Positions 46,133-54,994 of a stretch of DNA of 64,000 bases are shown here, piece by piece. The stretch lies in contig NZ_CP145732.1 of NCBI RefSeq assembly GCF_036884845.1, forward strand, positions 3,162,001 through 3,226,000. Direction: 5' to 3'. The stretch's first letter is position 1. Every line of letters starts with the position of its first letter. Made by a program: the position numbers and the translations under genes. The stretch comes from Pseudomonas sp. MAG733B. GTDB taxonomy: Bacteria > Pseudomonadota > Gammaproteobacteria > Pseudomonadales > Pseudomonadaceae. The notes beneath the pieces are model-generated. The model searched no databases. It was not told the origin of the DNA and saw nothing but the letters and a program-made list of their open reading frames with translations.

Positions 46133-46160
46133 CGCAAGGCTGGGGATTTGAAGTGACGCC

Positions 46161-46224
46161 ATCGCTGGCAAGCCAGCTCCCACAGGGATTGCGGTGATCA
46201 TGTGGGAGCTGGCTTGCCAGCGAT
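46161..46224. repeat. REP-type inverted repeat
   Basis: Arms ATCGCTGGCAAGCCAGCTCC... (46161-46184) and its perfect inverted complement (46201-46224) with a 16-base spacer. Between the converging small hypothetical gene and patD. Confidence 0.9.
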
Positions 46225-46231
46225 GCTCTTC

Positions 46232-47656
46232 TTAGTGTTTGAACATCACATGCCTTACGACGGTGTAATCCTCGAGTCCATACATGGACATGTCCTTGCC
46301 ATACCCGGACAGTTTCTGACCGCCGTGCGGCATTTCGCTGACGAGCATGAAGTGTGTGTTCACCCAAGTGCAGCCGTATTGCAACCGCGCCGACAGGCGA
46401 TGGGCGCGGCCGACGTCGGCGGTCCACACGGAAGATGCGAGGCCGTAGTCCGAATCGTTGGCCCAACCCAGCACCTGCGCTTCGTCGCTGAACTTGGTCA
46501 CTGACACCACCGGCCCGAAGACCTCGCGACGGACGATTTCGTCGTCCTGCTGCGCGTCGGCCAGCACGGTCGGTTCGAAGAAGAAACCATTGCCCTCAAC
46601 CGCTTTGCCGCCAGTAATCAAGCGGATGTGCGGCTGCGCCACGGCGCGCTCGACGAAACCGGCCACGCGGTCGCGGTGTTGCGCGGTGATCAACGGGCCG
46701 AGTTCGGTGGCCGGATCCTCCTGCAAACCGTACTTGATGCTGCTGACCGCCGCGCCGAGCTTCTCGACGAATTTGTCGTAGATACCTTCCTGCGTGTAGA
46801 TGCGGCAGGCAGCGGTGCAGTCCTGCCCGGCGTTGTAGAAGCCGAAGGTGCGAATACCTTCGACGGCGGCATCAATGTCGGCGTCGTCGAAGATGATCAC
46901 CGGGGCCTTGCCACCGAGTTCCATGTGCATGCGTTTGACGGTGTCGGCGGTGCTGGAAATGATGTTCGAACCGGTGGCGATCGAACCGGTCAGCGACACC
47001 ATGCGCACTTTCGGGTGAGTGACCAGCGGACTACCCACGGATGGACCACGACCAAACACCAGATTGAGTACGCCGGCCGGGAAAATCTCCGACGCCAATT
47101 GCGCCAGGCGCAGGGCGGTCAGCGGGGTTTGTTCCGACGGCTTGAGCACGACCGTGTTGCCGGCGGCGAGGGCCGGGGCGATTTTCCAGGCGACCATCAT
47201 CAGCGGGTAGTTCCACGGCGCGATGGAAGCGATCACGCCCACGGGATCGCGGCGGATCATCGAAGTGTGGCCCGGCAGGTATTCGCCACCGGCCGACCCG
47301 CTCATGCAACGGCTGGCGCCGGCGAAGAAGCGGAACACATCGGCAATCGCCGGGATCTCGTCGTTCAGCGCGGCGCTGTAGGGTTTGCCGCAGTTGTCTG
47401 ATTCCAGTTTGGCCAGCTCTTCGCCGTGGGCTTCGATGGCGTCAGCGAGTTTGAGCAGCAACAGCGAACGTTCTTTCGGCGGGGTTTGCGACCAGCCGTC
47501 GAACGCGGCATCGGCGGCACGCACAGCGGCATCGACCTGGGCTTCGCTGGCTTCGTTGATTTCCACCAGCACACGGCCCAGCGCCGGGTTGAATACCGGT
47601 TGGGCGGGGCCCTCGCCGTCGAGCAGTTGGCCGTTGATCAGGAGCTTGGTTTGCAT
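46232..47656 (-). CDS. patD: Gamma-aminobutyraldehyde dehydrogenase
   Basis: 474 residues, the same length as E. coli PatD (YdcW), which it follows closely along its whole length as I recall it: [12 protein letters not shown] start, [35 protein letters not shown] with the catalytic Cys, [16 protein letters not shown], and an almost identical C terminus ([19 protein letters not shown]). It oxidises 4-aminobutanal, from putrescine, to GABA with NAD. Here it follows an APC permease and the N-demethylase genes instead of polyamine genes. It may oxidise an aminoaldehyde or a related product of that pathway. Confidence 0.9.
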
Positions 47657-47706
47657 GGTTCTGTCCTCTTCGGAACTGTTGTTTTTTCTCTGGGGAAACC
47701 GGGCCC

Positions 47707-47789
47707 TGTAGGAGCTGCCGAAGGCTGCGATCTTTTGATCTTTATCTTCAAAAAAAATCAAAAGATCGCAGCCTGCGGCAGCTCCTACA
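47707..47789. repeat. REP-type inverted repeat (group with GCTGCCGCAGGCTGCGATC)
   Basis: Arms of about 33 bases, nearly identical to those at 10167-10251, with a short A/T-rich spacer. It lies between the permease and patD genes of the same strand and may trim or stabilise the transcript. Confidence 0.88.
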
Positions 47790-47803
47790 GGGGTAATGAG
47801 TTG

Positions 47804-49327
47804 TCAGTTACCGACCACGACTCTTTGCGACGCTTTGCTCTGCGGCTTGGAAAACTTCCACGCATCACCCGCCGGTGCCGTGCCTTTGTCGTAAGGCTTG
47901 CCCAGCAGCATGTAGACCAGGCCTGCACCCATCACCACCAGAGTGGTCAGAATCATTGAGTAGTTGATGTACCACGGCGCATCCGGCGAGCGCGGCCAGA
48001 CCATGTTGATGATGGCGCACACGCCGTAAATCAGCGCCGCCAGGTTGATCCACAGACCCCAGGCACCTAGGGTGAATTGACCGTTCGGGCGCCAGCCCTT
48101 GGCGCGGGCGATCAACGCGGCGACTACGATCAGCTGGAACGCCACGTAAATACCAATGGCCGCAAAGCCGACGATGGTGGCCACCGCGTCGGCCATGAAC
48201 ATGCCGAGGCAGACAATCGCCGCCGGAACCAGACCACTGACCAACAGCGCGAACGATGGCACATGGTTTGCCGATAGACGCTTGAACAGCGAACTGCCGA
48301 CGATCATTTCGTCCCGGGCATAGGCGAACAGCAACCGGCTGGCGGCCGCTTGCAGGCTCAACACGCAAGAAATGAACGAGACCATCACCACCGCCATTAC
48401 CAGGCGCGAACCCACGGGGCCAAACGCGTTGGCCAGGATGGTGGCAACCGGGTCGGTGTCTTCGCCGGCCAGGACCTTGGCCATGTCCGGCACCGAAAGG
48501 ATCAGCGCCAGGCACGCGAACATCGCCGCAGCGCCGCCAATGTAAATGGTCATGCGCATGGCTTTGGGAATGCGCTTGCCCGGGTTCGGGGTTTCTTCGG
48601 CGACATCGCCGCACGCCTCGAAGCCGTAGTACTGGAACAGACCGGCCAGGGACGCCGCGAGGAACGCCGGCAAGTACGAGCCATTGACCTCAAGGTTGAA
48701 GGTGTCAAACAGTACACTGATCGGCTGATGACGCTCGAAGATCAGCAGATAGCCACCGACGAGGATCGCCCCGACCAGTTCGCAGAGAAAGCCGAACATC
48801 GCCACCCGCGCCAGCAACTTGGTGCCCACCAGGTTCAACGCGGTGGACAGCAGGATGATTGCCAGGGCGATGTAGATGTTTGCCTCGGGACCGGGGCTGA
48901 AGCCCATCATGATCGCCAGATACGGCCCGGCACCCACCGCGACACCGGCGATGGTGGCGCACAGGGCCCAGGCATACACCCAGCCGACCATCCACGCCCA
49001 GCGCTTACCCACCAGGCGACGGGCCCAAGGGTAAACACCACCGGAAATCGGGAACTGCGAAACCACTTCACCAAAAATCAGGCACACCAGCATTTGCCCG
49101 GCGCCGATCAACAGGTAAGACCAGAACATCGGCGGGCCGCCGGCAGCCAGGCACAAACCGAACAGGGTGTAGACGCCGACGACCGGCGACAAGTAGGTAA
49201 AGCCCAGGGAAAAGTTCTCCCACAGGCTCATGCTGCGATTGAAATCGGAGCTGTAGCCGAGGGCGCGCAGTTGTTCCGCATCCTGGTCGGCGCTGGTGCT
49301 TGCACGCGTGTCAGATGAGCCACTCAT
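47804..49327 (-). CDS. APC-family permease, amine/choline-type
   Basis: 507-residue inner-membrane carrier with about twelve helices. The N-terminal LGYSSDFNRSMSLWENFSLGFTYLSPVVGVYTLF is typical of the amino acid/choline transporter group of the APC superfamily, whose members carry choline, GABA and related amines. GAGGAAATAAC precedes the ATG. It is followed by patD across a REP element and preceded by the N-demethylase genes, so it probably imports the substrate of that pathway. The exact cargo is not predictable. Confidence 0.9.
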   Translation of the reverse strand: MSGSSDTRASTSADQDAEQLRALGYSSDFNRSMSLWENFSLGFTYLSPVVGVYTLFGLCLAAGGPPMFWSYLLIGAGQMLVCLIFGEVVSQFPISGGVYPWARRLVGKRWAWMVGWVYAWALCATIAGVAVGAGPYLAIMMGFSPGPEANIYIALAIILLSTALNLVGTKLLARVAMFGFLCELVGAILVGGYLLIFERHQPISVLFDTFNLEVNGSYLPAFLAASLAGLFQYYGFEACGDVAEETPNPGKRIPKAMRMTIYIGGAAAMFACLALILSVPDMAKVLAGEDTDPVATILANAFGPVGSRLVMAVVMVSFISCVLSLQAAASRLLFAYARDEMIVGSSLFKRLSANHVPSFALLVSGLVPAAIVCLGMFMADAVATIVGFAAIGIYVAFQLIVVAALIARAKGWRPNGQFTLGAWGLWINLAALIYGVCAIINMVWPRSPDAPWYINYSMILTTLVVMGAGLVYMLLGKPYDKGTAPAGDAWKFSKPQSKASQRVVVGN

Positions 49328-49444
49328 GTTATTTCCTCATTATCAATGGCAGTGGATTAGTGCTGGCGGGTTGGCCCGCCGATGCCCGGTTTGGGCTTGT
49401 TGTTTTTTAGAAAACCGGTTGCGACCTGAAGCCATGTGCCGTCC

Positions 49445-49539
49445 TGTGGCGAGCGAGCTTGCTCGCGCTTGAGTGCGCAGCACTCACAAAAATGCCGGGG
49501 CCGCTTCGCAGCCCAGCGCGAGCAAGCTCGCTCGCCACA
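49445..49539. repeat. REP-type inverted repeat
   Basis: Arms TGTGGCGAGCGAGCTTGCTC... and its inverted complement (49515-49539) with a spacer of about 45 bases. Lies in the 227-base gap between the DUF3445 gene and the permease. A second small hairpin, GGCGGG/CCCGCC, is at 49365-49380, closer to the permease start. Confidence 0.88.
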
Positions 49540-49554
49540 TAAGCCCGGGCAGGT

Positions 49555-50595
49555 TCACGCCTGCTTTTTTGCCTCGTTATCTCGCCCATCGTCGTACTGC
49601 GAAAGCCACTCCACAGCCGCATCGCGGTAACGGCTGAAACCCTTGTAGTCGACCAGTTGCTGGTTCAAGTCGCGCAACACGCGGTGCATGCGCCGAGCCC
49701 ACGCCGGGTTGGTGGCGATATCTTCAAGGCTCAACAGGTAGGTGCGAATCGGAAAGACGATGGCGTTGCTGCGTGGCAGGCGATGCAGCGGTTGCAGTTC
49801 GATGCGCAGGTACACCAGCTTGCCGGCGTTTTCGGCGGTGACGATGGTCCGGTCCGGTGCCCATTCCGGCAGGCTTTCGGCCGACACTTCGAGGCGCGGG
49901 TTGACCGTCAGCGACCAGTTCAGACGCCGCACCGGGTGGCCGATCCGCAGACGCAGCAGGAACTTCAGGGCACGGTCGAGCATGCCGATTTCTTTCACCA
50001 GCGGTACCGGGCCGTGGAATTCTTCCCAGCTCATGCCGAGGTTGAAGCGCAGCGAGTAGTCCGCACGCTGAGTGGCGATGCCTGCACCCCAGTACAACGT
50101 TCCGTCGCGTTCTTCCTGCAAGACCCAGTCGCCCTGAGCCTGACGGGTCACATATTCCATCGGCTCATAGGGCAGAGTGGTCGGGTCGCCAAAGGTGAAA
50201 CGGTCGTCGATGCCCAGTAGCCGGTTGGTCCAGTGCCATTGGCGACCGTCCCGCTCCAGGCTGAAGTATTGCGGGTAATCCCGGGCATAGGATTCCATGA
50301 TCAATTCCAGCAGGTCCCATTGCGCCTCCATCATGTGCGGTGCCGAGACGTAGTGCATGCCCGGGTCTTTCTCCAGGGTGATGGCGCGATCGCGGCACTC
50401 GCTGATGTAGTGCTCGTCGATATCGAACGCGGCGCGGAACGCACCGTCGCCCACCGGGACATGAGGTTCGAGGTTCATCGAATACATGTAGTCATCATCG
50501 GGAAACGGGAAGGGCGCGCGGGCAATCGTTTCCGGGCTGTTGGCGAAGGTGTAGTCGTCGCGGTAGGTTTCGTCGGGATTGAATTTTATGTTCAT
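49555..50595 (-). CDS. Heme-dependent oxidative N-demethylase family protein (DUF3445)
   Basis: 346 residues of the DUF3445 family. The best known members are the heme subunit of dimethylamine monooxygenase and the HODM enzyme of P. mendocina. The opening FPFPDDDYMYSMNLEPHV and DWVLQEERDGTLYWGAGIA blocks fit. The heme iron oxidises an N-methyl group to formaldehyde plus a demethylated amine. It is the third gene after a DmmA-like protein and a PDR/VanB reductase, so the enzyme set is complete. GGAG precedes the ATG at 50595. Confidence 0.9.
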   Translation of the reverse strand: MNIKFNPDETYRDDYTFANSPETIARAPFPFPDDDYMYSMNLEPHVPVGDGAFRAAFDIDEHYISECRDRAITLEKDPGMHYVSAPHMMEAQWDLLELIMESYARDYPQYFSLERDGRQWHWTNRLLGIDDRFTFGDPTTLPYEPMEYVTRQAQGDWVLQEERDGTLYWGAGIATQRADYSLRFNLGMSWEEFHGPVPLVKEIGMLDRALKFLLRLRIGHPVRRLNWSLTVNPRLEVSAESLPEWAPDRTIVTAENAGKLVYLRIELQPLHRLPRSNAIVFPIRTYLLSLEDIATNPAWARRMHRVLRDLNQQLVDYKGFSRYRDAAVEWLSQYDDGRDNEAKKQA

Positions 50596-50612
50596 TGTTT
50601 TTTCTCCGTCGA

Positions 50613-51581
50613 TCAGAGGTCGATGACCAGGCGATTGCATTTGGCGCGGGATACGCAGGGCATGATTTTCTTGCGGCTGGTCTTGTCGTCGTCGGACAGC
50701 CAGTCGTCGCTGTGCAGCAGCTCGCCGTCGAGTTCCAGCACTTGGGTTTCGCAATGACCACAGGCACCGCCACGACACAGGTAAGGCATGCTGAAGCCTG
50801 CGGCTTCGACCGCTTCGAGCATGGTCTGGTCGGGTGAGACTTCGATGGTTGCGCCGCTGCGGCCGAGGGTGAAGCTGAAGGCTTCGCCGCCGCTGCTTTG
50901 CTCCAGAAAGCGTTCGAAGTGCACATGACTGTCGGTCCAGCCAAGGTCGTGAGCGCACGCCAGGGTGGCATCGATCATGCTATCCGGGCCGCACACGTAG
51001 ACGTGACTCCCCAGCGCGCGGTCGGCCAGAATCTTGCCGATTTCCATGCGCGATTCGACACCCTTGCGGTAGAGATGAACCTGCTGGCCATAGATGGCCT
51101 GCAACTCTTCGCCCAATTGCGCATGTTCTTCGCCACGCACTGCGTAATGCAGCTCGAACGGCACCTTGCTCAGGCGCAGTTCTTCCAATTGCGAAATCAC
51201 CGGCGTAATGCCGACACCGCCGGCGATAAACAAATGCAGGCGCGCCTGTTTGATCAACGGGAAGAGGTTGACCGGCGGTGTAATCTCGATCAGGTCCCCT
51301 TCGTTGACCGAGTCGTGCAGCGCAACCGAACCGCCGCGACCGCTTTCTACCCGGCGCACGGCAATCTGGTAGCTGCTGGTGTCGTAGGGCGAGCTCAGGA
51401 GCGAGTAGGGGTTGCGCAAGGTGTTGCTTTGATTGGCGATCAACACCACGACGTGACTGCCGCCGGAGAACGCCGGCAAGTGTGCGCCGGTCGGCGAGAC
51501 CAGGGTGAAGCGCTTGATTTCCGGGGTCACCGCTTCGATCCGGGCCACGCGCAGATTCATCGTCCCATTGTTCTGGCTCAT
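50613..51581 (-). CDS. PDR/VanB-family ferredoxin reductase
   Basis: 322 residues with three modules: a flavin-binding barrel (about 10-105, NPYSLLS and RGGSVALHD), an NAD-binding fold (FIAGGVGITPVISQL, YVCGPDSM), and a C-terminal plant-type 2Fe-2S domain with CRGGACGHC and a fourth Cys in MPCVSRA. It carries electrons from NAD(P)H to the heme protein encoded next. Its ATG overlaps the stop of the DmmA-like gene (ATGA); GGAG is upstream. Corresponds in position and type to the reductase subunit of dimethylamine monooxygenase. Confidence 0.92.
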   Translation of the reverse strand: MSQNNGTMNLRVARIEAVTPEIKRFTLVSPTGAHLPAFSGGSHVVVLIANQSNTLRNPYSLLSSPYDTSSYQIAVRRVESGRGGSVALHDSVNEGDLIEITPPVNLFPLIKQARLHLFIAGGVGITPVISQLEELRLSKVPFELHYAVRGEEHAQLGEELQAIYGQQVHLYRKGVESRMEIGKILADRALGSHVYVCGPDSMIDATLACAHDLGWTDSHVHFERFLEQSSGGEAFSFTLGRSGATIEVSPDQTMLEAVEAAGFSMPYLCRGGACGHCETQVLELDGELLHSDDWLSDDDKTSRKKIMPCVSRAKCNRLVIDL

Positions 51582-52183
51582 GTATCGAGCTCCTCGGCAG
51601 GGGGTAATTCGCCCGGGACTTCGGCGTCGGCCTTGACCGCCTGAAACGCCGCCAGGCGCCGGGAATAGTGATCGCGCACCACGAGCGTCACGCCACAGCC
51701 GGGGCAGTCGTAGACGCGTTGGGTGACGTTCTCGGTGTAGGTGTCGCAGTGCACGCACCAGACCCGGCGCACGAGGGTGCCGGAGTGCTCGCGCAGGACT
51801 TCGTCGCGGTTCAGGTCGAAATGCGTGGCCACTTGCATGGCGCTGCCGAGGAAACTTTCGGAACCGGCCAGATAGAGGCGGGTGCCCATGCGGGCATCTG
51901 CGAGCAGCACCTTGAGCGCGTCGATCAACGCCTGATTCGTCTCAACGACCTGCAATGGCAGGTTGGGGTGTTGCTGCTGCAATGGTGCGAGGAAATCCTG
52001 CCCGGAAAAGGATTCGCGGGAATACAGCAAGGTGATGGGGCAATCCAGCCCCTCCATCTCGTCCAGCAAACGCAACATGGCACGACCGCCGCTGCCTTGC
52101 CCGGCAACGATGTGTCGCCTGCCTCCCGGCAGTGGTTGCAACCGGTCATAAACCGGTCGGCTTTTGATCCCGGTGATCAACAT
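51578..52183 (-). CDS. Dimethylamine monooxygenase subunit DmmA family protein
   Basis: 201 residues. The N-terminal 120 resemble a nucleotide-binding or reductase-like fold (GQGSGGRAML, LYLAGSES). The C-terminal part has a rubredoxin-like metal site, WCVHC followed 15 residues later by CPGC. It is named after the DmmA-type subunit of dimethylamine monooxygenase, and stands first in the apparent operon, 88 bases downstream of a sigma54-type promoter. The individual role of this subunit is not well defined. The name rests mainly on gene context and the zinc-ribbon motif. Confidence 0.82.
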   Translation of the reverse strand: MLITGIKSRPVYDRLQPLPGGRRHIVAGQGSGGRAMLRLLDEMEGLDCPITLLYSRESFSGQDFLAPLQQQHPNLPLQVVETNQALIDALKVLLADARMGTRLYLAGSESFLGSAMQVATHFDLNRDEVLREHSGTLVRRVWCVHCDTYTENVTQRVYDCPGCGVTLVVRDHYSRRLAAFQAVKADAEVPGELPPAEELDT

Positions 52184-52269
52184 TCTTATTATTCCTCCTG
52201 GCTAGCGAGCCGGCGGATGGAAGCCGGCTCCGATGCAAAGCCCAACGATGGTGGGTTGCAGATAGCAGG

Positions 52270-52286
52270 AGCATAGGTCGTGCCAA
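52270..52286 (-). promoter_or_regulatory. Sigma54 (-24/-12) promoter of the N-demethylase operon
   Basis: Minus strand reads TTGGCACG-ACCT-ATGCT. The GG and GC pairs are exactly 12 bases apart as in the TGGCAC-N5-TTGC consensus. It sits 87 bases before the first gene. A sigma54-dependent activator is the next gene upstream. One base (A for T) differs in the -12 box. Confidence 0.8.
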
Positions 52287-52391
52287 GTATTTAACTTGTT
52301 GAATTATAAGAAAATAGTATTTGTGATGGTCTGTGATGCAGGCAAAAGTAAACAAATGTGTAGGCGTTTTTGCAGCGCCTGGTTTGTTTCC

Positions 52392-52432
52392 GGTTAGCGC
52401 ACAATCCCCTGTGCAACCGCCTGTCGGCGGTT
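52392..52432. promoter_or_regulatory. Inverted repeats upstream of the sigma54 promoter
   Basis: GGTTaGCGCACA/TGTGC-AACC (52392-52403 and 52410-52418) and the perfect AACCGCC-tgtc-GGCGGTT (52415-52432). They lie about 115-150 bases upstream of the -24 box, the usual place for an activator binding site. They may instead be part of the activator gene's 3' end, whose stop codon they touch. Confidence 0.45.
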
Positions 52433-53867
52433 AATCGCGCTGCAACTTGCGAATCAGCGTGCCGATGTCGATGCCCAGGTGCTGCGCAGCCTTGCGCTTG
52501 CTGCCGCACAGGTCCACGGCCTGGAGGATCACTTGGCGTTCGAACTGTTGAACCTGAAGTTTGAGGTTTTGCTCCGGGTTGTCTTGCGGCTCGTCCTCCA
52601 CGATGGAAGGTCTCGAGTGCGGCGGCGAGCGCTGCGGCTCTAGCAGTTCGGCCGGCAAGTGATGCTCCTGCGCTTCATCGTCGGCAAGCACCGCCAGCCG
52701 CTCGAAGATGTTCACCAGTTCCCGAATATTGCCCGGAAAGTCATAGCTCATCAGACGCTTGCGGCAGCCGGTCGACAGGCTCAGCGACGGCTCGCGGTCG
52801 CCATTGATGCGGCTCAGGAGAATATCGATCAGAAACGGCAAATCATCCCGGTGCTGGCGCAGCGGCGGAATTTCAACGGGCAGCACGGCGAGGCGATAGT
52901 AAAGGTCGGCACGAAACTCGCCGGTGCTCACCAAGTGGCGCAGGTCTTTGTTGGTGGCGGCGATGACCTGCACCTGTACGGTCTTGCTCAGGGGCGAGCC
53001 GACTGACTGGATGGTGCTGTCTTCGAGAAACTTCAATAACTTGGCCTGGACATGCAGGGGGATTTCGCCGATTTCGTCGAGAAACAATGTCCCGCCCGAG
53101 GCCGCCTCGATATAGCCTTGCTTGCCGCCCTGCAAGGCGCCGGTGAACGCGCCGCGCTCGTAGCCGAACATCTCCGATTCGAAAAGGCTCTCGGGAATGC
53201 TCCCGCAATTGACGTGAATGAACGGCCGGTCACCCCAACCGGCCGCCCGATGAATATGCCGGGCGATGGCGGTCTTGCCGACCCCCGGTTCACCCAGCAG
53301 CAACAACCGCGCGCGCCGGCGAAAAGCACGCACGCCGGTATCGGCGATGCTCGACAGTTGCGGGGAAAGATGCAGGGCATTGTCCTGAGGATCACGCAGG
53401 CCCTGGGGTTCCACCGGTCGGCTGCCAAGGGAGGTTCGACGCTGTGGCTGGCTGCCGTCGAAGTCTTTCTGGGTCAACATGCGGAACGGTTTTTCGTAAG
53501 CACCCGTGGGAATCGCATGCGTGCTGCTGAGCAGGACGCGACCTTCCCGCGAGCGGGTCAACGCGCTGTTGCCACCGCGATTCAACGCAGCCAGCAGATC
53601 ATCGTAATTCAAGGCCGAACGCTGGAAAAAATCACTTTCCGACAGCCCGACGGCTTGCTGTTTGGAGAGCCGGTTGACACGTTCGGCGGCCAGATTGAGA
53701 AAGCGCACCTGGCCTTCGCCGTCCGTCACGATCAACGCTTCGCTGAAGCTGTCGAGCAAGGCGTGCAGCGCTGGAGTTTGCAGCAGTGCACCCAGCACTT
53801 CAGTGCTGACATTGACCGAAGAACGCATGCCCATCTGCATGGTTGGGGGCAGGTTGGTATCTTTCAT
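52431..53867 (-). CDS. Sigma54-interacting transcriptional activator
   Basis: 478 residues. A PAS-like sensor (about 30-130) precedes an AAA+ domain with Walker A GEPGVGKT at 192-199, the sigma54-contact loop GAFTGA at 239-244, Walker B in GGTLFLDE and FPGNIREL near 377. A Fis-type helix-turn-helix ends the protein (KRKAAQHLGIDIGTLIRKL). No receiver domain, so activity is probably set by ligand or by its partner PAS protein. Its ATG overlaps that partner's stop (ATGA). It most likely drives the sigma54 promoter at 52270-52286. Confidence 0.93.
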   Translation of the reverse strand: MKDTNLPPTMQMGMRSSVNVSTEVLGALLQTPALHALLDSFSEALIVTDGEGQVRFLNLAAERVNRLSKQQAVGLSESDFFQRSALNYDDLLAALNRGGNSALTRSREGRVLLSSTHAIPTGAYEKPFRMLTQKDFDGSQPQRRTSLGSRPVEPQGLRDPQDNALHLSPQLSSIADTGVRAFRRRARLLLLGEPGVGKTAIARHIHRAAGWGDRPFIHVNCGSIPESLFESEMFGYERGAFTGALQGGKQGYIEAASGGTLFLDEIGEIPLHVQAKLLKFLEDSTIQSVGSPLSKTVQVQVIAATNKDLRHLVSTGEFRADLYYRLAVLPVEIPPLRQHRDDLPFLIDILLSRINGDREPSLSLSTGCRKRLMSYDFPGNIRELVNIFERLAVLADDEAQEHHLPAELLEPQRSPPHSRPSIVEDEPQDNPEQNLKLQVQQFERQVILQAVDLCGSKRKAAQHLGIDIGTLIRKLQRD

Positions 53868-54994
53868 GGGTGCAACTCTTCGGTGCGGCGAACGCCCTGG
53901 CTTTGGCGGAACACCGCAACCCGCCAGGCCACGCCTTCACGGATCAGGATGCGCGAACAATGCACATTGAACTGCCGTTCGCGCCCGCCAAGGCCCGGCA
54001 GGGGCAGGCTTTGCCAGGTGCGTTCGGGCAGTGCGTTGTCCAGCAACAGTCGAGCGATGCCTGCACCTTGGGTGATACCAAAGGTTTCTTCGAAGGCTGC
54101 GTTGCGCCATTGCGGTTGCAGGTGTTCATCGATCACCAGCACCGCGTCAGGCACTGCATCGAACACCCGGCGCAGGGCATCGATGCGTTGCTCGGCGTCG
54201 TGCTGCATGCGCAGTTCCTGGCTGACGTCGCGAATGCTGCCCCACATCCGCAACAACTGGCCGTTAACGATGGTCGCCCGTACGTCGTTTTCCACGTAGG
54301 CGGGCGAACCGTCATGGCGACGGTCCACCGACAGTGCGCAATCGACGCTGAACCCGGCTTCGATCAACCGCCGCACGAACTCTTCGTTGGCCGGGCTGCG
54401 CGGCCAGTACAGTCGCACGGGTTGCTGGTTGAAATCGACATCGGACGGCATCTCGTAGACATCGGCCATAGCACGGTTGCACAGGCGCCAGTGGGAGTCG
54501 TTTTCGAATACCTGGCGGACGATTTCATCCGGTGAATTGTTGATGTCCACCGCCTCGGCGAACTCGATGCACCAGTAGGCGACCTTGGCGCTCTGCAGCA
54601 TCTGGCTCATCACCTCATTGGCGTTGTGCATTTCCCGTAGCCGATGACCCAGAACCCCAAGCGGGATTTTCAATAGATGAAGACGTGCCGGTTGCACTGT
54701 CCGCCATTCCAGCAAGCCACTGGCAATCACGTGCAACAGCCCGCCGTTGTGGCGAATCAGGGTCAATTCCAGGCTGTGGATCTGTTCATCGGCAGGTGGG
54801 TTGGCAAACAGCGATTGCACAGTACGCATCGAGTCGACGCTGAAGATGCGTTCGATCGGCTGGTCGAGCAGTTCGTCGGGTGCATAACCCAATTGATCGC
54901 TCAGGCTGGCGGAAAGGTTGAGCAGGTGCCCGTCGGCACTCAGGGTACTGGCCAGAGGCTGGGCTTTTCTGGCCAGCAAATTCAGGATATCCAT
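53864..54994 (-). CDS. PAS-domain sensor protein without output domain
   Basis: 376 residues with three PAS-like units (about 5-110, 130-255 and 265-365). Seen motifs include LLNLSASLSDQLGYAPDELLDQPIERIF and WRNAAFEETFGITQGAGI. No kinase, cyclase, methyl-accepting or DNA-binding domain is present and no membrane segment. It is translationally coupled to the sigma54 activator, which also bears a PAS-like domain, so it is probably a cytoplasmic co-sensor acting on it through PAS contacts; that is inference. The 614-base gap upstream carries its promoter. Confidence 0.85.
   Translation of the reverse strand: MDILNLLARKAQPLASTLSADGHLLNLSASLSDQLGYAPDELLDQPIERIFSVDSMRTVQSLFANPPADEQIHSLELTLIRHNGGLLHVIASGLLEWRTVQPARLHLLKIPLGVLGHRLREMHNANEVMSQMLQSAKVAYWCIEFAEAVDINNSPDEIVRQVFENDSHWRLCNRAMADVYEMPSDVDFNQQPVRLYWPRSPANEEFVRRLIEAGFSVDCALSVDRRHDGSPAYVENDVRATIVNGQLLRMWGSIRDVSQELRMQHDAEQRIDALRRVFDAVPDAVLVIDEHLQPQWRNAAFEETFGITQGAGIARLLLDNALPERTWQSLPLPGLGGRERQFNVHCSRILIREGVAWRVAVFRQSQGVRRTEELHP

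Follow-up and report, generated by a model that had tools for sequence, protein, structure and literature searches.

An HODM-type oxygenase locus without DmmD in Pseudomonas sp. MAG733B, a recurrent variant joined to PatD and a permease

Which amine is oxidised by an oxygenase of the dimethylamine monooxygenase type when its genes adjoin a permease gene and patD? The question is raised by a seven-gene locus of Pseudomonas sp. MAG733B, the genome of which comprises 6.65 Mb on a single contig (NZ_CP145732.1). The window analysed here is a stretch of 64,000 nucleotides from this contig. It carries the locus on the minus strand at 46232-54994. All seven genes were open, and their order agreed with that of a preliminary description: PAS protein, sigma54 activator, DmmA, reductase, HODM alpha subunit, APC permease and PatD. 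The joint oxygenase, permease and PatD system is a recurrent variant, of which no description was found in the open-licence literature searched. It lacks the DmmD gene of the classical loci, and its alpha subunit belongs to a separate clade. A reading with a little less than even prospects is favoured: an HODM-type complex may have moved off dimethylamine and oxidise a small secondary amine to 4-aminobutanal/1-pyrroline, with pyrrolidine as the leading candidate substrate, and PatD would convert the product to gamma-aminobutyrate (GABA).

The seven genes and the split from classical HODM loci

The genes of the locus were, in the order of transcription:

53864-54994, minus strand: PAS-only regulatory protein of 376 amino acids (PAS 47.6 bits)
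52431-53867, minus strand: sigma54-dependent activator with AAA+ domain and Fis-type helix-turn-helix (Sigma54_activat 194.8 bits, HTH_8, HTH_50)
51578-52183, minus strand: DmmA-like subunit of 201 amino acids (PF22290, DmmA-like_N, 118 bits; PF22289, DmmA-like_C, 72.7 bits)
50613-51581, minus strand: reductase with flavin, NAD(P) and C-terminal 2Fe-2S domains (Fer2, FAD_binding_6, NAD_binding_1)
49555-50595, minus strand: HODM alpha subunit, a haem-binding PAS oxygenase (DUF3445) of the clade without DmmD (PF11927, 230 bits, cut-off 25)
47804-49327, minus strand: APC-superfamily permease of 507 amino acids (PF13520, AA_permease_2, 168 bits)
46232-47656, minus strand: PatD-type 4-aminobutyraldehyde dehydrogenase (Aldedh 561 bits, NF010000 834 bits)

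The three middle genes had been described as dimethylamine-monooxygenase-like, and this was confirmed. Alpha subunit, DmmA-like protein and flavin/2Fe-2S reductase were all present and belong to the HODM/DmmABC family. The same three kinds of component make up the HODM of P. mendocina, and the alpha subunit matched its solved structure (5lte) with 447 bits over residues 1-336. The cofactors of HODM are reportedly the subject of work by Ortmayer from 2016. The DmmA-like subunit scored 116 bits with NF041259 (cut-off 60) and carries a C-terminal CxxC..CxxC motif. The cysteine motif of the reductase is C-x4-C-x2-C-x31-C. The DmmA and reductase genes overlap by 4 nt, as do the PAS and activator genes. 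According to the excerpted text of PMC5520151, the classical HODM attacks dimethylamine at a methyl group, and the formaldehyde is presumably handed to folate by DmmD.

Relatives of the alpha subunit were found in 40 of the 199 genomes of the genus, its own genome counted. Their identities fell into three bands: I with 89-100%, II with about 71-73% and III, the classical enzymes, with 52-59%. Two copies were held by four of these 40 genomes, combining bands I and III (G126, G136) or II and III (G009, G128). Altogether, 146 loci were compared, of which 56 belonged to band I, 46 to band II or to actinobacteria, 42 to band III and two were more distant. They comprised 43 places in the genus outside the own genome, the best 80 of 108 named loci, 19 of 34 further strong phylum matches and four small loci. 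The 19 were hand-picked for spread, leaving aside the other 15 and the weak matches. Some genomes were represented twice, under two names each; the number of distinct alpha proteins was 48 of 56 in band I, 31 of 37 in band II, nine of nine in actinobacteria and 42 of 42 in band III. Neighbour-gene counts rest on tblastn.

DmmD separated the two groups of loci. In band III, a GCV_T (DmmD) gene was located near the alpha gene in 41 of the 42 loci, L208 being the exception. An FMO-like gene, presumably Tmm, was present in 32, a DUF1989-GCV_T gene, which we take to be Tdm, in 30 and FolD in 20. None of these 42 loci contained PatD or a permease of the window's type. DmmD was found in none of the 102 loci of the window's type, that is, bands I and II and the actinobacterial loci. 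When at least 5 kb of flank was required on each side, DmmD lay within 5 kb in 40 of 41 classical loci versus none of 80 loci of the window's type. No gene resembling DmmD, Tmm, Tdm or FolD was found in these 80 loci; PatD was present in 49, the APC permease in 43 and an MFS transporter in 36. In the window, no DmmD with GCV_T/tetrahydrofolate-binding domain was linked to dmmABC. A DmmD encoded elsewhere in the genome was also rejected, the best GCV_T match reaching 126 bits compared with at least 242 bits for the 41 linked DmmD.

In the tree, the 145 alpha proteins were represented by 53 rows, among which the window's type formed one clade with support of 100/100 and a stem of 0.4, placed inside the classical enzymes and next to a row with DmmD. 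After addition of 11 further Burkholderiales loci the clade was kept (91/89), and the long-branched L267, the second copy of genome G1520, became its sister (100/100). The window's type differs from HODM/DmmABC(D) in the clade of its oxygenase and in its neighbours: DmmD and Tmm-, Tdm- and FolD-like genes were not found, and a permease and PatD stand in their place, together with regulators of the sigma54 or GntR/dCache kind. DmmD on the one side and PatD or permease neighbours on the other, together with the separate clade, provide a simple rule that sorts most loci into the two groups. The model library names the DmmA of the window 'dimethylamine monooxygenase subunit', which makes it likely that loci of this kind are taken for dimethylamine degraders.

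PatD, permeases and regulators around the oxygenase

Oxygenases of the window's type were recurrently joined to PatD, a permease or both, in three arrangements and two phyla. Branch I, corresponding to band I, showed the order PAS-S54-DmmA-reductase-alpha-APC. Among the loci of sufficient length, PAS and sigma54 activator genes were located upstream in 51 of 52 and the APC permease downstream in 52 of 53, and a chance gene order was rejected on these counts. The sole exception in both respects was L108 from Lacisediminimonas, with the order gamma-glutamyltranspeptidase-PatD-DmmA-reductase-alpha, a PatD of 65% identity and an alpha subunit falling in branch I. Branch II was arranged as PatD-DmmA-reductase-alpha-MFS with GntR and dCache regulators. 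Its 37 loci held PatD upstream in 36, the MFS transporter in 37 and GntR and dCache in 34 each. The one locus without PatD, L137, had no dmmA match and a reductase reduced to a remnant of 33 residues. All seven actinobacterial loci with flank held a homologous APC permease (48-56% identity) no more than 3.3 kb from the alpha gene, with a different gene order and strand arrangement; GntR accompanied it in seven and dCache in five. PatD was not found near the actinobacterial loci.

The preliminary description had asked whether the permease and patD vary independently of the dmm genes. The permease of branch I, being nearly invariant, withstood this check better than PatD. PatD did vary within branch I, where it was located downstream in 13 of 40 loci (11 of 35 after removal of identical alpha proteins), yet it stood directly upstream of dmmA in nearly all branch-II loci. 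The label 'choline/GABA-type' given earlier to the permease could not be established: no NCBIfam permease model reached its cut-off, TIGR00907 scoring 180 versus 598 bits.

The dCache-type sensor matches had about 233-248 amino acids (L043:14618-15361, L153:5133-5831). In branch II and in actinobacteria they often occurred together with GntR/FCD regulators close to the oxygenase genes. Outside Pseudomonas, the window's type was scarce in the sets searched. Of 396 genomes from the order to which a Pseudarthrobacter locus belongs, three carried it, the centre counted, with two more matches at 42-45% identity. In the phylum of a Nocardioides locus (396 genomes) and in the order of Lacisediminimonas (349 genomes) it was present in the centre genome only; a strong match of any kind was found in 12 genomes of the latter set. 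A plasmid-borne cluster was considered and rejected. Plasmid records matched in 148 cases, all below 60% identity, and the 30 listed had 55.7-58.6%, the range of the classical enzyme. The enterobacterium Shimwellia pseudoproteus carried a branch-I cluster with 86% identity (L112), suggesting horizontal transfer.

The assignment of PatD was based on the subfamily model NF010000, which it passed with 834 bits against a cut-off of 615, and on its nearest solved chains, 1wnb (800 bits) and 6c43. In these respects it resembles PatD/YdcW. A betaine aldehyde route was rejected: two betaine aldehyde dehydrogenase models gave 480 and 447 bits against cut-offs of 669 and 593, and NF010000 was passed. 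The substrate of the PatD family is a 4-carbon amino-aldehyde, which indicates an oxidation product other than formaldehyde.

The PatD of the window differs from PatD/YdcW in that its gene adjoins an oxygenase instead of ABC-transporter genes, and it is a near-copy of a second PatD. Among 45 aldehyde dehydrogenase-family matches in the genome, this second patD was located at C1:1762910-1764331. It is 99.6% identical to that of the window in protein and 95% in DNA. Its surroundings comprised a presumed LysR-like regulator, a PatD-like aldehyde dehydrogenase (62%), a solute-binding protein, an ABC permease, PatD and an APC paralogue with 75% identity to the permease of the window. The run resembles, we assume, the ydc operon of E. 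coli. The binding protein and ABC permease of this run shared 77% and 84% identity with their counterparts in P. oleovorans L119. P. oleovorans and one relative had a LysR/ABC-transporter/patD run with the oxygenase genes directly after it. The patD pairs within the own genome (G000), G127 and G997 shared 95-99% DNA identity, and between these genomes about 90%; in G996 and G998 the two copies were not more alike within the genome. For three of the five genomes compared, the pattern hints at gene conversion or a recent duplication.

This second patD also bears on a demethylase route. If the locus encoded an N-demethylase for N-methylputrescine or another of the larger N-methylated amines, formaldehyde would pass to housekeeping dehydrogenases, and other enzymes would turn the freed diamine into the 4-aminobutanal used by PatD. 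Such a route appears unlikely. It would agree with the ABC-transporter run around the other patD and with the demethylation of dimethylamine by the classical family, represented by the 5lte relative (as excerpted in PMC5520151). Against it stand the lack of DmmD-, Tmm-, Tdm- and FolD-like genes in the 80 well-flanked loci, the lack of a DmmD-like protein in the genome and a Pfam scan of 20 neighbours of other loci, in which neither a transaminase nor a diamine oxidase was detected. A larger N-methylated amine, not dimethylamine alone, had been the proposal of the preliminary description. Its second half stood: the locus, joined to both a permease and PatD, is probably no plain dimethylamine system. 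Its first half did not, as demethylation was left unsupported by the DmmD counts (0 of 102 versus 41 of 42, and none in the genome). A demethylase reading of the locus is doubtful.

Control region of the oxygenase operon

The control region held two predicted elements:

52270-52286, minus strand: predicted -24/-12 (sigma54) promoter TTGGCACGACCTATGCT, of the form GG-N10-GC, preceding dmmA
52338-52365, minus strand: putative activator site, direct repeats GCCTAC (52365-52360) and GCCTGC (52343-52338), 22 bp apart

Of the 55 upstream regions of branch I, 54 carried the pattern T-GG-N10-GC, compared with 2.5% of shuffled regions. The lone region without GG-N10-GC was that of L108, which also has no sigma54 activator. 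A pattern derived from TTGGCACGACCTATGCT and its relatives had no second match in the window with up to one mismatch allowed, and genome-wide the site was the sole exact match. One mismatch gave eight matches in total versus 11 in the reversed control, so that only the exact match is informative. The GCCTAC-like repeat pair was detected with a loose pattern in 33 of the 55 regions versus 2.8% of shuffles. It was visible in the inspected alignment of 22 branch-I rows and may represent the activator site.

The activator carries GAFTGA and Walker A motifs. Its N-terminus gave a weak PAS match of 21.5 bits, slightly below the cut-off. In the PAS protein, no kinase domain was found in the family search and no PDB relative at E 0.01. 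Sigma54 control of the oxygenase operon had been suggested before, and the GG-N10-GC promoter together with an activator bearing GAFTGA makes it probable.

Candidate substrates and a possible route to 4-aminobutanal

The absence of DmmD together with the linkage to an enzyme for 4-aminobutanal would be accounted for most simply by an oxidation that itself yields 4-aminobutanal. For substrate, product, transport and induction, the gene set suggests the following route. Alpha haem subunit, flavin/2Fe-2S reductase and DmmA would form one haem-PAS monooxygenase complex, which would hydroxylate the carbon adjoining the nitrogen in a small secondary amine with a C4 chain or ring. The unstable product would open to 4-aminobutanal, in equilibrium with 1-pyrroline, and PatD would turn it into GABA, entering central metabolism by the usual transaminase route. 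With pyrrolidine, a single hydroxylation would give 4-aminobutanal, with no formaldehyde and no extra enzyme ahead of PatD. The APC permease would bring the amine in, and the PAS protein and sigma54 activator would turn on dmmA-reductase-alpha from the -24/-12 promoter. Spermidine or homospermidine could likewise give 4-aminobutanal, and N-methylputrescine could do so if cleaved on the butyl side.

Sixteen alpha positions separated 18 representatives of the window's type from 34 classical rows, a set without the Burkholderiales additions. Twelve of them lie within residues 155-290, the PAS domain of HODM (5LTE) according to PMC8694187. Aromatic residues are shrunk in three changes, W180Y, W193F and F206L. 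The 16 positions suggest a remodelled enzyme rather than any given substrate. One of them, the clade-defining Q162E, puts an added acid beside E161 and would agree with polyamine cleavage, in which spermidine or homospermidine would be oxidatively dealkylated at its secondary amine to give 4-aminobutanal and a diamine. The PatD substrate would thereby be made directly and free of formaldehyde, and the ABC-transporter/patD run preceding the oxygenase genes of P. oleovorans and a relative is consistent with it. Polyamine cleavage is nevertheless improbable, as D170G and D185N take away two acids in the same domain and dimethylamine, the substrate of the parent enzyme, is much smaller.

Several observations weigh against direct oxidation to 4-aminobutanal. 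Other separating changes of the alpha subunit enlarge residues (N215R, G246A, V265I). PatD fell short of the strict equivalog cut-off of TIGR03374 (ABALDH), with 878 versus 909 bits. No downstream PatD was present in 27 of the 40 branch-I loci, including L108, where it is located upstream instead. Two of the 13 PatD-positive loci (L033, L083) represent one frameshifted copy from Pseudomonas sp. Root562. In favour of the proposal, PatD with at least 65% identity was detected in 20 of 21 branch-I genomes tested, including all 15 without PatD at the locus; the exception, Root562, holds just a 62% paralogue besides its frameshifted copy. This reflects availability, not linkage, and PatD may just be widespread among these bacteria. 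Against the proposal, a close PatD was not found in three actinobacterial genomes (E 1e-190), and an SSADH-like dehydrogenase follows in two Pseudarthrobacter loci, the scanned one falling below the model cut-off.

The absence of DmmD is not diagnostic alone either. Of the 11 Burkholderiales loci (57-61% identity), eight had DmmD within 3 kb; it was lacking in L263 and L264 and 9 kb away from L267. Lack of the linked gene arose more than once, as seen in L208, L263 and L264. According to the excerpted text of PMC5520151, dmmABC without dmmD was active in E. coli, and the dmmD of M. silvestris was dispensable for growth and not located directly next to dmmABC. The locus could be a plain dimethylamine monooxygenase without linked DmmD, with PatD and permease as incidental neighbours; the activity of dmmABC alone, the labile PatD linkage of branch I and the two Burkholderiales loci of classical identity range without DmmD would fit. 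This is rather unlikely in view of the recurrence of the PatD/permease linkage in different orders and phyla, the classical copy coexisting in four genomes and the long stem branch of the clade.

Within the favoured direct oxidation, a narrower proposal is held with less confidence and remains tentative: a P450-independent route for saturated N-heterocycles, in which the haem-PAS clade hydroxylates pyrrolidine, perhaps piperidine, beside the nitrogen, the ring opens and PatD yields GABA. A pseudomonad pyrrolidine route, covering pyrrolidine, putrescine and aminobutyraldehyde dehydrogenase, was reportedly described by Jakoby and Fredericks in 1959. If true, the proposal would supply the missing first enzyme of this route and an enzymatic PAS domain with chemistry other than N-demethylation. 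To our knowledge, only demethylases have been described for the HODM enzyme fold, and this haem-PAS fold is unrelated to P450. For mycobacteria, the excerpted text of PMC9477822 attributes the utilisation of piperidine, pyrrolidine and morpholine to P450 enzymes. The PipA/morpholine monooxygenase of mycobacteria performs the same kind of ring hydroxylation as proposed here (PMC9477822, as excerpted), but is a P450 with separate ferredoxin and reductase. No paper tying the HODM family to pyrrolidine or PatD was found among the open-licence literature matches listed. The locus offers a testable substrate class for the HODM fold. For cyclic amines, which are frequent in drugs and industrial waste, it may provide a route independent of P450.

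Further observations concerned the Burkholderiales loci and the flanks. L263 and L264 adjoin an APC permease of the classical-cluster type; the genes after the permease of L263 look like hydantoinase subunits, judged by appearance. Both loci possibly represent another substrate shift within the HODM family. L267 is a second, fast-evolving HODM copy adjoining a cluster of the classical trimethylamine/dimethylamine type in G1520. The DmmD located 9 kb from it is accompanied by Tmm/Tdm-like genes, and the other copy, L269, has its own DmmD at -2.7 kb. The small protein preceding L267 is presumably RidA-like. By the look of the translations, the genes downstream of the seven-gene locus are presumably lactate permease and glycolate oxidase subunits, and those upstream OsmC, acetyltransferase, cupin and TonB-receptor genes. 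Two REP-like (repetitive extragenic palindromic) elements were located around patD, each with two inverted copies and a chance expectation of 0:

47707-47789, no strand assigned: REP-like palindrome in the permease-patD gap
46160-46225, no strand assigned: REP-like palindrome past patD

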